Shown: piece by piece, positions 52,369-59,297 of the stretch
Layout of the letters: every line of letters begins with the position of its first letter
How positions within the stretch are numbered: the first letter of the stretch is position 1
Source: Brachybacterium halotolerans
GTDB lineage: Bacteria; Actinomycetota; Actinomycetes; Actinomycetales; Dermabacteraceae
Assembly: GCF_016623465.1 (NCBI RefSeq)
Contig: NZ_JAEDAJ010000001.1
Span: 152,227-216,226 of the forward strand
Direction of reading: 5' to 3'
Length of the DNA stretch: 64,000 bases
Notes under the pieces: model-generated
Databases searched by the model: none
Told to the model about the DNA's origin: nothing
Seen by the model: the letters and a program-made list of their open reading frames with translations, nothing else
Position numbers and translations under genes: made by a program

Positions 52369-52450
52369 CATTCCCGGAGGGACAGGGTGCCCGACGAGGC
52401 GATGAGGCTCGCCGTCGCACAGCGGGTCACACAGCGGGACAGCGCACAGA

Positions 52451-52491
52451 GAGAGGGCCCGACCGCGCCACGTGCGCGGTCGGGCCCTCTC
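52451..52491 (-). terminator. Terminator after the opcA-pgl fusion gene
   Basis: A perfect 18-bp stem (52451-52468 / 52474-52491) with loop CACGT, 37 bp beyond the fusion stop on the minus strand. With the secG hairpin it isolates two convergent units. Confidence 0.82.
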
Positions 52492-52527
52492 GGTGCTCCG
52501 GGCGGTCGTCCCGGTGCGGCCTGCTCG

Positions 52528-54228
52528 TCAGCCCTTCCGCAGGCCCGTCGCCGAGGACTCGTCGAGGTACCAGGTGGTGGACTCGAGCCCGCGCACCGAG
52601 GAGGCCGGGACCTCCCACGGGTCGATGCCCTCGTGGGCGCGCGCGACCGCCTCGGCCTTCTCCTCGCCGGCGGCGAGCAGGCCCACGTGGCGGGAGGAGT
52701 TCAGCACGGGCCAGGTCAGCGACACCCGCAGCGGCGGCGGCTTGGGGGAGTCGACCACGGCCACGGCGCTCGCGCCGTCGAGCTGCTGCGCCGGATGGCG
52801 CGGGAACAGCGAGGCCACGTGGCCGTCGGGGCCGACGCCCAGCAGCAGCACGTCGAAGAACGCCTCGCCGCGGGTGCGGAACGGACGGTCGCCGCCCGCG
52901 CGGTCCAGCTCCTGGCCGTACCAGGCGGCGGCCTCGTCCAGGGACATGCCGCTCGAGGTCGAGGGGACCGGATGCACCTTGCCGGGCGCGAAGGCGATCT
53001 TCTCGAGGAAGCCGACGCGCACCGCCTGGTCGTTGCGGTCCTCCGAGTCGGCGTCGACGAAGCGCTCGTCGCCCCACCACACGTGCACGGCGGCCGGGTC
53101 GACCTCGTGCTCGACGAAGGCGATGGGAAGGGCATCGGCGGTGGCGGTGCCGATGGTGCCGCCGGTGACCACGAGGTGCGCCTCTCCGCGTGCGGAGATC
53201 GCCTCGGCGAGGCGGGAGGCCACGTCGTCGGCGGCGCGCACGGCGGCGGCCTCGAGGGACTCCGAGACGGCGTCCGTCGGCTCCGGCTTGCCCTTCGCGA
53301 AGGTGGAGGCGTCCTCGACCTTGGAGAAGGCGTGGGCGAGGACCTCGCCGTAGACCTCGTCGGGATCGAGGCGGCGCAGCTCCTCGGCGAGCAGCTCGTA
53401 GAGGGAGCTGGCGGGCACGGGGACGCGCTGGTCCTCCTGGTCGCCGGGCAGGGAGATGATGACGCTGTCGCCGTCGCCGCGGCGCAGGGCCACGGTCCCG
53501 TCCTCGCGCTCGAAGACGAGGGACTGGGGGCCGGCGGGGCAGCCGTCGACGGTCTCGATGTCGACCTCGAGCCCGAGCTCGAGGGCGAGCCACGCGGCCA
53601 GCAGGCGCACCGAGGGATCGCCCGCGGGTCCGGCGACGCTCACGCTGCGCGGGAGGGAGATCGGCGGGGTCTCGTAGGCCGTGGCGGCCAGTCCGCGCCA
53701 GCGGGTGATGCGGGCCCAGGAGAGGTCGGAGTCGCCGCTGGAGTAGCCGCGGCGCAGGCGCTTGAGCGTCGCGTCGGGGTCGCTCGAGGAGGCTGCGTCG
53801 GTGATGCGGCGCTGGGAGATCGACCCCAGGACGTCGTGGACCGGGGACGAGGGAGCGTCCTCGGGCCACCAGGTGACGATCGGGGCGTCGGGAAGCAGCA
53901 GCGGGGTGATGAGCGTGTCCAGGCTGGACATGACCTCGCCGCGGGCGCGGAGGATGACGATCTCGCCGGCTCCCGCGTCGCGGCCCACGCGGATCTCCGC
54001 GTCCAGTCCGGTCTCGGCGTCGGTGTCGGCATCGACCACGATGACCCGCGAGGGGTGCTCGTGGCTGGCCTGCACGGCGGCCTGCAGGGGCTGATCGATG
54101 TCCTCCCCGGTCGCGACGATGATCAGCGTGAGCACGCTGCCCACGGTGGTCGCGCCGAAGGTCTCGCGCATCTGCGTCATCTTCTTGTCGACGGCGGATG
54201 CGGTGGTGTCGTTCAGGGTGGTGATCAC
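52528..54228 (-). CDS. OpcA-6-phosphogluconolactonase fusion
   Basis: One uninterrupted 566-residue frame holding two normally separate proteins. Residues about 1-300 are OpcA, the glucose-6-phosphate dehydrogenase assembly/activation factor: TRETFGATTVGSVLTLIIVA-like N-terminus, PIVTWWPEDAPSSPVHD (about 116-132), SLSYGSS-like GYSSGDSDLSWARITRWRG (about 161-179). Residues about 325-566 are 6-phosphogluconolactonase (SOL/DevB): HLVVTGGTIGTA (about 351-362), VHVWWGDERFVD (about 381-392), LLLGVGPDGHVASLFP (about 461-476). Linker 300-325 has no stop and no convincing internal ribosome site. ATG 54228 overlaps the zwf stop (ATGA). It supports the first two oxidative pentose phosphate steps. Confidence 0.93.
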   Translation of the reverse strand: MITTLNDTTASAVDKKMTQMRETFGATTVGSVLTLIIVATGEDIDQPLQAAVQASHEHPSRVIVVDADTDAETGLDAEIRVGRDAGAGEIVILRARGEVMSSLDTLITPLLLPDAPIVTWWPEDAPSSPVHDVLGSISQRRITDAASSSDPDATLKRLRRGYSSGDSDLSWARITRWRGLAATAYETPPISLPRSVSVAGPAGDPSVRLLAAWLALELGLEVDIETVDGCPAGPQSLVFEREDGTVALRRGDGDSVIISLPGDQEDQRVPVPASSLYELLAEELRRLDPDEVYGEVLAHAFSKVEDASTFAKGKPEPTDAVSESLEAAAVRAADDVASRLAEAISARGEAHLVVTGGTIGTATADALPIAFVEHEVDPAAVHVWWGDERFVDADSEDRNDQAVRVGFLEKIAFAPGKVHPVPSTSSGMSLDEAAAWYGQELDRAGGDRPFRTRGEAFFDVLLLGVGPDGHVASLFPRHPAQQLDGASAVAVVDSPKPPPLRVSLTWPVLNSSRHVGLLAAGEEKAEAVARAHEGIDPWEVPASSVRGLESTTWYLDESSATGLRKG

Positions 54229-55760
54229 GGTCGCCTCCAGGCGCGTCCGTCGCGCGTGAGCATCTCGTTGGCGGTCTCCGGGCCCCAGGTGCCGGGGCGG
54301 TACGGAGCGGGCGGAAGGTTCTTCGCCCAGTAGTCGGTGATCGGGTCGAGGATCTCCCAGGACAGCTCGACCTCCCGCTGGCGCGGGAACAGCGGCGGGT
54401 CTCCCAGGAGCATGTCCAGGATCAGCCGCTCGTAGGCCTCGGGCGATTCCTCGGTGAACGAGGACCCGTACTGGAAGTCCATGTTCACGTCCCGCACCTC
54501 CATCTGGGTGCCGGGGACCTTGGAGCCGAACCGCATGGTCACGCCCTCGTCGGGCTGGACGCGGATCACGATCGCGTTCTGGCCGAGATCCGCGGTGTCC
54601 GTGGAGGAGAACGGCAGGAACGGCGCGGACTTGAAGACCACGGCGATCTCGGTGACGCGGCGGCCCAGGCGCTTGCCCGCGCGCAGGTAGAACGGGACGC
54701 CCGCCCAGCGGCGGGTGTTCACGTCCAGGCGCATCGCGGCGAACGTCTCGGTCGTGGAGTCGGCGGGGATGCCGTCCTCCTCGAGGTACCCCTTGACCTC
54801 CTCGCCGCCCTGCAGACCCGCGACGTACTGTCCGCGGGCGGTGTGCAGGGAGAGGTCCTCGGGCAGGGAGATGGCCTCCAGGACCTTCTCCTTCTCCGTG
54901 CGCAGCTCCTTCGCGTCGAAGGAGATGGGCTCCTCCATCGCGGTCAGCGCGAGCAGCTGCAGGAGGTGGTTCTGGATGACGTCGCGCGCGGTGCCGATGC
55001 CGTCGTAGTAGCCCGCACGCGAGCCGATGCCGATGTCCTCGGCCATCGTGATCTGCACGTGGTCCACATAGTTGGCGTTCCAGATCGGCTCGAACATCTG
55101 GTTCGCGAAGCGGAACGCGAGGATGTTCTGGACCGTCTCCTTGCCCAGGTAGTGGTCGATGCGGAAGACGTCCTCCGGGCGGAAGACCTTCTCCACGACG
55201 TCGTTGAGCTCCTTCGCGGAGGCCAGGTCGTGCCCGAAGGGCTTCTCGATGACCACTCGCCGCCAGGAGCCGTCCCGCGGGGTGTTCAGTCCCGAGTTCG
55301 CCAGCTGCGAGCAGACCTGCGGGAACGCGTCCGGCGGGATCGAGAGGTAGAAGGCGTGGTTGCCGCCCGTGCCGCGGGTGCGGTCCAGCTCCTCGACGAC
55401 CTCGGTGAGCTTCTGGAAGGCGGCCGTGTCGTCGAAGGTGCCGGTGACGAAGCGCAGACCGCCGCGCAGCTGCTCGAAGGTCGACTCGTCGAACTCGGTG
55501 CGGGCGTGCTCGGTCACGGACGTGCGCACGTAGTCGGCGAAGTCGTCATGGCTCCAGTCGCGGCGGCCGTAGCCGACCAGGCCGAAGCTCGGCGGCAGCA
55601 GACCCCGGTGGGCCAGGTCGTAGATCGCGGGAAGGAGCTTCTTGCGGGCGAGGTCTCCGGTGACGCCGAACATCACCATCGAGCTCGGCCCCGCGATCAG
55701 CGGCAGACGCCGATCACGGGGATCGCGCAGCGGATTGCGCGGAGTGGGGGTCGTGTTCAC
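54225..55760 (-). CDS. zwf: Glucose-6-phosphate dehydrogenase
   Basis: First step of the oxidative pentose phosphate pathway: glucose 6-phosphate to 6-phosphogluconolactone with NADP. The protein is about 511 residues. The NADP motif GVTGDLARKKLLPAIYDL is near residue 32 and the active site RIDHYLGKETVQN near 197-209; VVIEKPFGHDL precedes it. I chose GTG 55760 because GGAAGG then lies 6 nt upstream; with ATG 55766 that Shine-Dalgarno would abut the start, so the alternative adds only two residues. Its stop overlaps the opcA-pgl start, so the enzyme, its assembly factor and its lactonase are translated in series. Confidence 0.96.
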   Translation of the reverse strand: MNTTPTPRNPLRDPRDRRLPLIAGPSSMVMFGVTGDLARKKLLPAIYDLAHRGLLPPSFGLVGYGRRDWSHDDFADYVRTSVTEHARTEFDESTFEQLRGGLRFVTGTFDDTAAFQKLTEVVEELDRTRGTGGNHAFYLSIPPDAFPQVCSQLANSGLNTPRDGSWRRVVIEKPFGHDLASAKELNDVVEKVFRPEDVFRIDHYLGKETVQNILAFRFANQMFEPIWNANYVDHVQITMAEDIGIGSRAGYYDGIGTARDVIQNHLLQLLALTAMEEPISFDAKELRTEKEKVLEAISLPEDLSLHTARGQYVAGLQGGEEVKGYLEEDGIPADSTTETFAAMRLDVNTRRWAGVPFYLRAGKRLGRRVTEIAVVFKSAPFLPFSSTDTADLGQNAIVIRVQPDEGVTMRFGSKVPGTQMEVRDVNMDFQYGSSFTEESPEAYERLILDMLLGDPPLFPRQREVELSWEILDPITDYWAKNLPPAPYRPGTWGPETANEMLTRDGRAWRRP

Positions 55761-55780
55761 GATCATCCTTCCGGCACGTG

Positions 55781-55909: not shown

Positions 55910-57022
55910 TCAGGCCGAGGCCGAGGCGATCTGCGCCGCGACGGTCTCGAGCAGCTCGTTCCAGGCCTTCTCGAACTTCTCGACGCCCTCGCGCTCGAGG
56001 ACGGCGTAGACGTCGTCGAGGTCGACGCCCGCGGCGGAGATCTTCTCGAGGTCCGCGGCCGAGGCCTGCGCGGCCTCCGCGTCCAGCGCCTTCCCGGGCT
56101 CGGAGTGGTCGGCGACCGCGTCGAGCGTCTTCTCCGGCATCGTGTTCACGGTGGGGGAGGCGACCAGCTGGTCGACGTACATGGTGTCGGCGTACTCGGG
56201 GTTCTTCACCCCGGTGGAGGCCCACAGCGCGCGCTGCACGTGGGCGCCCTTCGCGGCGAGCTTCTCGAAGCGCTCCGAGGAGAACTTCTCGAGGTACACG
56301 CCGAAGGCCACGCGGGCGTTCGCCACGCCGGCCTTGCCGCGCAGCTCCAGGGCGTCCCCGCCCAGCTTCTCGAGGCGCGCGTCGATCTCGGTGTCGAAGC
56401 GCGAGACGAAGAAGGAGCCGACCGAGCGGATGGTCGAGAGGTCGATGCCGGCGGCGTCGGCCTTCTCGAGGCCCGCCAGGTAGGCGTCGATGACCTCGCG
56501 GTAGCGGTCCACGGAGAAGATGAGCGTCACGTTGACGCTGATGCCAGCGCCGATCACCTCGGTGATGGCCGGCAGGCCCTCCTTGGTGGCGGGGATCTTG
56601 ATCATCACGTTGCTGCGGTCGACGACCTCGCTGAGGTGGTGGGCCTGCGCGATCGTCTTCTCGGTCTCGTGCGCCAGGCGCGGGTCGACCTCGATCGAGA
56701 CGCGGCCGTCCTGGCCCTCGGTGGCCTCGGCGACCGGGGCGAAGAGGTCCGAGGCGGCGCGCACGTCGTCGGTCGTGAGCTTCTCGACGACCGCGTCGAC
56801 GTCCTTGCCGGCCTTCGCGAGCTCGGCGATGTCAGCGTCGTAGTCCTGGGCGCCGGAGATCGCGGCCTGGAAGATCGAGGGGTTGGTGGTGACGCCCACG
56901 ATGTTCTTCGTGTCCACGAGCTCCTGGAGGTTGCCGGAGGTCAGGCGGCCGCGGGAGAGGTCGTCCAGCCAGATCGACACGCCGGCGTCGGAGAGGGCCT
57001 GGGTGCGGGTGTTCTGGGTCAT
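55910..57022 (-). CDS. tal: Transaldolase
   Basis: Non-oxidative pentose phosphate pathway: moves a dihydroxyacetone unit between sugar phosphates. The 370-residue enzyme has [27 protein letters not shown] (about residues 43-55), the Schiff-base Lys in [16 protein letters not shown] (about 139-154) and [15 protein letters not shown]. This is the longer actinobacterial TalB-like form. ATG 57022 has GAGGAAGGA 8 nt upstream. It is transcribed after tkt but separated from it by a strong hairpin. Confidence 0.96.
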
Positions 57023-57197: not shown

Positions 57198-59297
57198 TCA
57201 GCTGCGTGCGGCCTCGATGGATTCCTTCGCGGCGGCCACCACCGCGTCGGCCGTGAAGCCGTACTCTCGGAAGAGCGTGGCCGCGTCCGCGGAGGCGCCG
57301 TAGTGCTCGAGGCTGACGGCGCGGCCCGCGTCGCCCAGGTACTTGAACCAGGACTGGGCGATGCCCGCCTCGACGCTCACCCGGGCGCGGACGCCGCGGG
57401 GGAGGACCGACTCGCGGTAGGCCTCGTCCTGGTCCTCGAACCACTCGACGGACGGCATGGAGACCACGCGGGTCGGCGTGCCGGCCTCCTCGAGCTGCTT
57501 CTGCGCCTCGACGGCGTACTGCACCTCGGAGCCGGTGGCGATGAGGATGACCTCGGGCTCGCCGCTGCCGGCGTCCTTGAGGACGTAGCCGCCCCGGGCG
57601 ACGCCGTCGGCGCTCGCGTACTCGCCGCGGTCCAGCGTCGGCAGGGCCTGGCGGGAGAGGATCAGGCCGATCGGGCGCTCGCGGCGCTCGATCGTCGCCT
57701 TCCAGGCGGCGGCCGTCTCGTTGGCGTCGGCCGGGCGGACGACGTCCAGTCCCGGGATGGCGCGCAGCGCGGCGAGGTGCTCGACCGGCTGGTGGGTGGG
57801 GCCGTCCTCGCCCAGGCCGATGGAATCGTGGGTCCACACGTAGATGTTGTCCACGCCCATCAGGGCCGAGAGGCGCACGGCGCCGCGCATGTAGTCCGAG
57901 AACTGCAGGAACGTGCCGCCGTAGGCGCGGGTCAGCTCGTCGAGGTTGATCCCGGAGAGGATCGCGCCCATGGCGTGCTCGCGGATGCCGAAGTGCAGCG
58001 TGCGGCCGTACTCGTCGCCCGAGAACTCCTTGGTGGAGCGCTCGGCGGGGATGAAGGAGGGCTCGCCGTCCATGGTGGTGTTGTTCGAGCCGGCGAGGTC
58101 GGCCGAGCCGCCCCAGAGCTCGGGCAGCACGGGGGCGAGGGCGTTGAGCACCTTGCCGGATGCGGCGCGGGTGGCCAGGCCCTTGGCGTCGGCCTCGAAG
58201 ACGGGCAGGGCGTCGGCCCAGCCGTCGGGGAGGTCACCGGCGACGAGCCGGTCCAGCAGCGCGGCGCGATCCGCGTTGGCCTCGCGCCAGCTCGCGAGCT
58301 TCTCGTCCCAGGCGGCGTGCGCCTCCTTGCCGCGCTGCACGAGCTCGCGGGTGCGGTCGAGGACCTCGGCGGGGACGTCGAAGGTCTTCTCGGGATCGAG
58401 CCCGAGCGCCTTCTTGAGGCCCGCGACCTCCTCGTCGCCCAGGGCGGAGCCGTGGGAGGCGCCGGTGCCCTGCTTGGTGGGGGCGGGCCAGGCGATGACG
58501 GTGCGCAGGGCGATGAAGGACGGCTTGTCGGTGACCTTCTTGGCGTCCTCGATCGCGGCCTTGAGGGCGGCGACGTCCTCGACGTACTGGGTGCCGCCGT
58601 TGGTCCAGTCGACGCGGTGGACGTCCCAGCCCAGCGCCTCGTAGCGGGCCGCCGTGTCCTCGGTGAAGGCGATGTCGGTGTGACCCTCGATCGAGATGTC
58701 GTTGTCGTCCCAGAGGACGATGAGGTTGCCCAGCTCCTGGGTGCCGGCGATCGAGGAGGCCTCGTTGGTGACGCCCTCCTGCATGTCGCCGTCGGAGGCG
58801 ATCGCGAAGGTGAAGCGGTCGAAGGGGCTCTCGCCCGCGGGGGCCTCGGGGTCGAACAGGCCGCGCTCGCGGCGCTGGGCCATGGCCATGCCGACGGCGG
58901 TCGCGAGGCCCTGGCCGAGCGGGCCGGTGGTGGTCTCGACGCCCTTGGTGTGGCCGACCTCGGGGTGACCCGGGGTCTTCGAGCCCCAGGTGCGCAGGGA
59001 CTCGATGTCCTCGAGCTCGAGGCCGAAGCCGCCGAGGTAGAGCTGGATGTACTGGGTGAGGCTCGAGTGACCCGCGGAGAGGACGAAGCGATCGCGGCCC
59101 AGCCACCCGGTGTCCGAGGGGTCGTGGCGCATGATGTCCTGGTACAGCAGGTAAGCGGCCGGGGCGAGGCTGATCGCCGTCCCCGGGTGGCCGTTCCCGA
59201 CCTTCTGGACGGCGTCCGCCGCGAGGGTGCGCACCGTGTCGATCGCGCGCTTGTCCACGTCGGTCCAGCCGTCGATTCCCTTGAACGATTCGCTCAC
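57198..59297 (-). CDS. tkt: Transketolase
   Basis: Thiamine-diphosphate enzyme that moves two-carbon units in the pentose phosphate pathway. The 699-residue protein has [20 protein letters not shown] (about residues 33-52), [15 protein letters not shown], the ThDP motif [18 protein letters not shown] (with [11 protein letters not shown] following) and the C-terminal-half [20 protein letters not shown] (about 484-503). GTG 59297 ([11 protein letters not shown]) is preceded by GGAAGGA. tkt-tal-zwf-opcA-pgl is the typical actinobacterial order except for the fused last pair. It is divergent from ctaB. Confidence 0.97.

Follow-up and report, generated by a model that had tools for sequence, protein, structure and literature searches.

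The question raised by this locus is why OpcA, the partner protein of glucose-6-phosphate dehydrogenase (G6PDH, encoded by zwf), and 6-phosphogluconolactonase (6PGL) should be joined in one protein. The window, that is the whole stretch of 64,000 nucleotides that was analyzed, comes from Brachybacterium halotolerans (contig NZ_JAEDAJ010000001.1, positions 152,227 to 216,226), and the gene in question, opcA::pgl, lies on its minus strand. It is argued below that the gene probably encodes one bifunctional protein which would carry the lactonase to Zwf, and that fusions of this kind apparently have three origins. The pentose phosphate pathway supplies reduced nicotinamide adenine dinucleotide phosphate (NADPH), which matters in industrial actinobacteria.

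The fusion protein

An earlier note on this DNA, made from the letters alone, claimed an uninterrupted frame of 566 codons holding both OpcA and 6PGL. This is what is found: a single open reading frame (ORF) with all its domains above the Pfam cut-offs. The OpcA half contains OpcA_G6PD_assem (residues 52-160, 120.6 bits with a cut-off of 27.9) and OpcA_G6PD_C (residues 165-297, 119.7 bits with a cut-off of 27.7); the second half contains Glucosamine_iso/6PGL (residues 326-553, 206.3 bits, far over the cut-off) and passes the NCBIfam pgl model TIGR01198 (187.1 bits, cut-off 124.45). The 6PGL motifs TGGTIGTA, WWGDERFVD and GVGPDGHVASLFP are found at residues 355-362, 384-392 and 464-476, and the last two we take to be active-site motifs with a catalytic role. 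In the predicted model both halves fold like their solved relatives, the first having the OpcA fold of the solved G6PDH partner and the second the 6PGL fold. The match of the OpcA half to solved OpcA was made with VIA-align; with Foldseek alone OpcA was absent among the best 50 rows. There is one cysteine among the 566 residues (residue 230) and therefore no disulfide is possible within the protein. Since zwf is a separate ORF and the fusion has no dehydrogenase, it stands outside the fusion enzymes of glucose-6-phosphate dehydrogenase (G6PD) and 6PGL, although it may work like one of them.

Distribution of the fusion

How widely the fusion occurs was left open in the earlier note. A full-length fusion is present in 43 of the 47 genomes of the bacterium's own GTDB family (which we take to be the Dermabacteraceae), and both domains lie in one ORF in all 43 loci fetched, with Brachybacterium, Dermabacter and Helcobacillus among the named ones. 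The B. subflavum counterpart (L032) is 98% identical, and in one genome (G341, locus L026) the fused ORF ends 12 profile positions short of the end of the 6PGL profile. An artefact of assembly or sequencing, to which we give next to no chance, is refuted by this recurrence. A divergent genus of the family, on a long branch (L127, genome G304), has separate opcA and pgl genes overlapping by GTGA, which is probably the older layout. A sample spread evenly over the order (30 loci of 74 genomes) gave fusions in 5/5 loci of the own family and separate genes in 25/25 loci of other families.

Two further fusions, also with OpcA before 6PGL, were found in a clade around Ornithinicoccus (O. halotolerans, L057) and in a Kocuria metagenome-assembled genome (MAG; L055), the latter case being one MAG and the scan of named genomes covering the best 80 of 257 relatives. 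Among 24 genomes of the Ornithinicoccus neighborhood (G764 and G804-G826) the two domains are fused in one ORF in 13, the frame is interrupted in 3, and OpcA has no adjoining 6PGL in 5; of the remainder, 2 had an OpcA match only, at loci not fetched, while the last had no match at all. Linkers in this group are between 24 and 83 residues long. In the wider family of G764 there was no fusion in the 29 loci fetched (L170-L198, of 79 genomes), 26 having separate genes and 3 OpcA alone.

Equal open-frame lengths for OpcA and 6PGL had suggested fusions in nine more genomes (G834, G870, G068, G082, G952, G923, G926, G928 and G940), which were rejected when a stop was found between the genes (L225, L226, L224, L270, L271, L284, L283, L279 and L285).

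Five genomes near Ornithinicoccus (G815, G821, G825, G808 and G814; loci L168, L169, L235, L236 and L237) have an OpcA with a linker-like C-terminal tail and no adjoining 6PGL, and searching these genomes as a whole gave no match but OpcA. Either the 6PGL half was lost from a fusion or the tail predates it. In the wider Ornithinicoccus family OpcA with long C-terminal tails, often rich in Ala and Lys, is seen at L174, L177, L190, L197 and L226.

Number of origins

Domain trees built without the linker require three changes between the fused and the separate state, and the well-supported branches alone force three, both in a tree of 117 rows (34 fused ones out of 57 distinct, and 83 separate ones out of 161 distinct) and in a second tree, made with a mixture model from 54 rows hand-picked from the 117. 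Left out of the trees were the interrupted loci (L054, L059, L139, L231, L164 and L166) and repeats or a cut piece (L124, L137, L138 and L140). Branch support was Shimodaira-Hasegawa-like (SH-like) or from the SH approximate likelihood ratio test (SH-aLRT) only, with no bootstrap. In the approximately unbiased (AU) test, holding two fused groups together lowered the fit: p-AU was 0.023 for the own family with the Ornithinicoccus group, 2.25e-5 for the own family with the Kocuria MAG and 1.5e-5 for the Ornithinicoccus group with the Kocuria MAG, values which are optimistic, 0.023 above all, the groups having been named after the 117-row tree was seen.

The count of changes alone cannot separate gain from loss. 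Three gains are the simplest reading because every fused group nests among separate ones, and on these trees the OpcA-6PGL fusions seem to have three origins. The searches stayed within the class; since some of them gave the best rows only and fusions with long linkers were split into two matches, further fusions outside the named groups may exist.

The join between the halves

The earlier note described a linker of 25 residues. That length agrees with the distance between the Pfam edges (297 to 326), yet the structural join covers no more than ~14 residues: in the model the match to solved OpcA extends up to residue 309 and the fold of 6PGL begins at 313-317, which places the join at about 301-314. 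Residues 298-325 form 28 columns with zero gaps in the 43 distinct sequences of the family (that this equals the number of fused genomes is a coincidence). A311, K314 and P315 are invariant, D306 is present in 95% of the sequences, P317 and D319 in 88% and G313 in 86%, and the majority pattern reads F-S-x-I-x-D-x-x-x-F-A-x-G-K, followed by P315. Judged from this alignment the join is a stretch of fixed length with a few fixed residues, the rest being loosely constrained.

AlphaFold2 gave the Brachybacterium fusion mean values of the predicted local distance difference test (pLDDT) of 74 for residues 301-310 and 91 for residues 311-320, with a predicted template modeling score (pTM) of 0.74. 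In the Ornithinicoccus protein, whose linker is 42 residues by profile edges, pLDDT is below 50 at 304-325 and pTM is 0.70. The join of the own family is thus predicted to be ordered and the Ornithinicoccus linker disordered, a comparison in which the alignment, rich in members of the own family and poor in Ornithinicoccus kin, favours confidence in the former. The two domains of the family protein may stand in a fixed geometry.

In principle the open frame could yield two proteins, either because translation also starts internally, at a GTG near codon 320-330, or because a protease cuts the join. Start-type codons are indeed found at 300-331 in 40/43 family sequences, with GTG at codon 321 in 25, and a stretch resembling a Shine-Dalgarno sequence precedes one such codon in 15/43 sequences; such stretches precede 14% (155/1145) of all in-frame GTG codons, a background counted per codon and not per sequence. 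However, no start-type codon is conserved in position, Val is most often encoded by GTG in these genes (1147/2125), and between codons 301 and 329 the gene in the window lacks any start-type codon. Initiation at GTG 330 would leave out the strand with which the 6PGL fold begins (residues 318-322). We regard the production of two proteins as very improbable.

How the fusion may work

We hypothesize, with somewhat better than even confidence, that the gene yields one bifunctional protein. Its OpcA half would bind and activate the Zwf oligomer encoded by the preceding gene, and its C-terminal half would be an active 6-phosphogluconolactonase carried as cargo. OpcA would serve as an adaptor docking 6PGL on the Zwf oligomer, and the delta-lactone would be cleared faster locally. 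In Synechocystis OpcA is bound to the G6PDH tetramer (PDB 9EMM; PMC12892837, PMC13071761), and docking on Zwf is inferred from homology with that complex; that both halves are active and that lactone is cleared locally are presumed as well. The idea of the earlier note that the lactonase is tethered to Zwf-OpcA and the lactone channelled is thereby supported in part: the fusion stands, docking is likely by analogy with 9EMM, and channelling in the strict sense is conjectural. Without 6PGL, which hydrolyses the product of G6PDH, the delta-lactone turns into a gamma form that is not hydrolysed spontaneously (PMC3148214).

That three fusions have one order hints that OpcA and 6PGL work side by side. 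Repeated fusion is a well-known sign of two proteins acting together, but it does not prove it. The hypothesis is also favored by the 4-base overlap of zwf and opcA in 206 of 258 loci, counted from the nearest start codon. A bolder version, which we put forward tentatively and hold to be unlikely, takes OpcA as a general docking platform bringing 6PGL to Zwf across the Actinomycetes, in trans in most species, and exposed by the repeated fusions. The join of the Brachybacterium family, with its fixed length and A-x-x-K-P, would then be a rigid element orienting the lactonase to the active site of Zwf, and the delta-lactone would be passed on before it escapes.

Several observations weigh against the docking of an active lactonase by OpcA. 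One OpcA per G6PDH tetramer, as in Synechocystis, would mean that some active sites are without lactonase. The five OpcA-only genomes near Ornithinicoccus indicate that the union can be lost or is dispensable. Conservation in the join is below that in either domain, with a mean top frequency of 0.66 as against 0.77 and 0.75, and its excess at third positions is weak (0.302, 0.299 and 0.373 at positions 1-3, compared to 0.183, 0.133 and 0.362 in OpcA). The OpcA half scores 214.7 bits with the NCBIfam equivalog TIGR00534, under the cut-off of 256.25, and is therefore called an OpcA domain and not an OpcA equivalog; as a control, 6/7 stand-alone OpcA proteins from zwf-opcA loci are also under the cut-off (206-254) and one passes (278). 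Finally, two PF10282 matches of 167.5 and 27.0 bits (L286, genome G000, C18:230571-231605; and L287, C5:6422-6700, a weak and partial match) could be other lactonases. The stronger one, the only one of the two that was scored, reaches 54-68 with 6PGL equivalog models, far short of 370-500. In favor of the lactonase role of the fusion, PF01182 finds two further proteins of the 6PGL/NagB fold in this genome, of which one passes the NagB cut-off and the other no NCBIfam cut-off. Among the proteins scored the curated 6PGL cut-off is met by the fusion only; a second lactonase in the genome is possible.

The strongest rival is a fusion which is neutral or concerns expression only: a small insertion or deletion joined overlapping genes, equal amounts of OpcA and 6PGL matter at most, and 6PGL works free of Zwf. 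We find this rather unlikely, but the junctions speak in its favor. Counted from the nearest start codon, a choice favouring overlaps, a 4-base overlap joins opcA to pgl in 109 of the 180 loci where they are separate, so that a small change suffices for fusion, which may be neutral; the related genus with separate genes (L127) has a GTGA overlap. The Ornithinicoccus group differs in linker length, with one linker predicted to be disordered, and has relatives with OpcA but without 6PGL beside it, which points the same way, and Stover et al. caution likewise on the eukaryotic fusions (PMC3148214). On the other hand, three fused groups of one order, together with a join that has no gaps and keeps invariant residues, are more than neutrality would predict. 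Furthermore the zwf-opcA junction, which is tight too, stays separate in 256/258 loci, and the other two are a single Demequina locus with a frameshift, counted twice; this control is partial, as some loci are repeats and the structure of the proteins may forbid a fusion at that point.

Comparison with known systems

Fusions of G6PD with 6PGL are already known in eukaryotes, and OpcA as the fusion partner of 6PGL is a variant of that theme. The fusions of chordate H6PD, Plasmodium and Giardia/Trichomonas (PMC3148214, PMC6165198) also tie 6PGL to the first step of the pathway, with three independent origins (PMC3148214), and the same benefit was proposed for them. The eukaryotic fusions join 6PGL to the dehydrogenase itself, whereas the bacterial fusion joins it to OpcA with zwf apart. 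Corynebacterium glutamicum has the five functions in the same order as Brachybacterium, tkt-tal-zwf-opcA-devB(pgl), but with opcA (cg1779) and devB (cg1780) as separate genes (PMC2230225). Cyanobacterial OpcA is a longer protein (445 residues in S. elongatus) under the control of cysteine pairs (PMC12892837, PMC13071761), in contrast to the fusion with its single cysteine. The mycobacterial 6PGL structures (PDB 4tm7, 3oc6 and 3ico) are of stand-alone proteins, whereas the Brachybacterium 6PGL domain follows OpcA in frame. No description of an OpcA-6PGL fusion was found in the open-access literature searched, most subscription papers and domain databases lying outside it.

The gene cluster

The order on the minus strand is tkt-tal-zwf-opcA::pgl, with the fusion gene adjoining zwf (Table 1). 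The TGA stop of zwf and the GTG start of the fusion share four bases, 54225-54228. The earlier note gave this overlap as ATGA; the sequence reads GTGA, the 4-base overlap itself being present.

Table 1. Features at the opcA::pgl locus (positions in the window).
Feature	Positions	Strand	Remarks
tkt, transketolase	57198..59297	-	TIGR00232 above cut-off
tal, transaldolase	55910..57022	-	TIGR00876 above cut-off
zwf, glucose-6-phosphate dehydrogenase	54225..55766	-	TIGR00871 653.4 bits, above cut-off
opcA::pgl fusion gene	52528..54228	-	one ORF, GTG start, 566 codons, ~60.0 kDa; Pfam and NCBIfam domains
OpcA half, residues 1-300	53329..54228	-	OpcA_G6PD_assem and OpcA_G6PD_C
structural join, residues 301-314	53287..53328	-	P315 next; gap-free family columns, pLDDT
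6-phosphogluconolactonase half, residues 315-563	52540..53286	-	with TGGTIGTA, WWGDERFVD and GVGPDGHVASLFP
stable hairpin directly 3' of the fusion gene	52440..52500	-	-52.2 kcal/mol; z -7.05 (200 shuffles)

A scan for consensus terminators listed none at the 3' end of the fusion gene, and RNA folding gave the hairpin of Table 1. It is long and without a T run, and sits between opcA::pgl and a convergent gene for triosephosphate isomerase; perhaps it marks the 3' end of the transcript.
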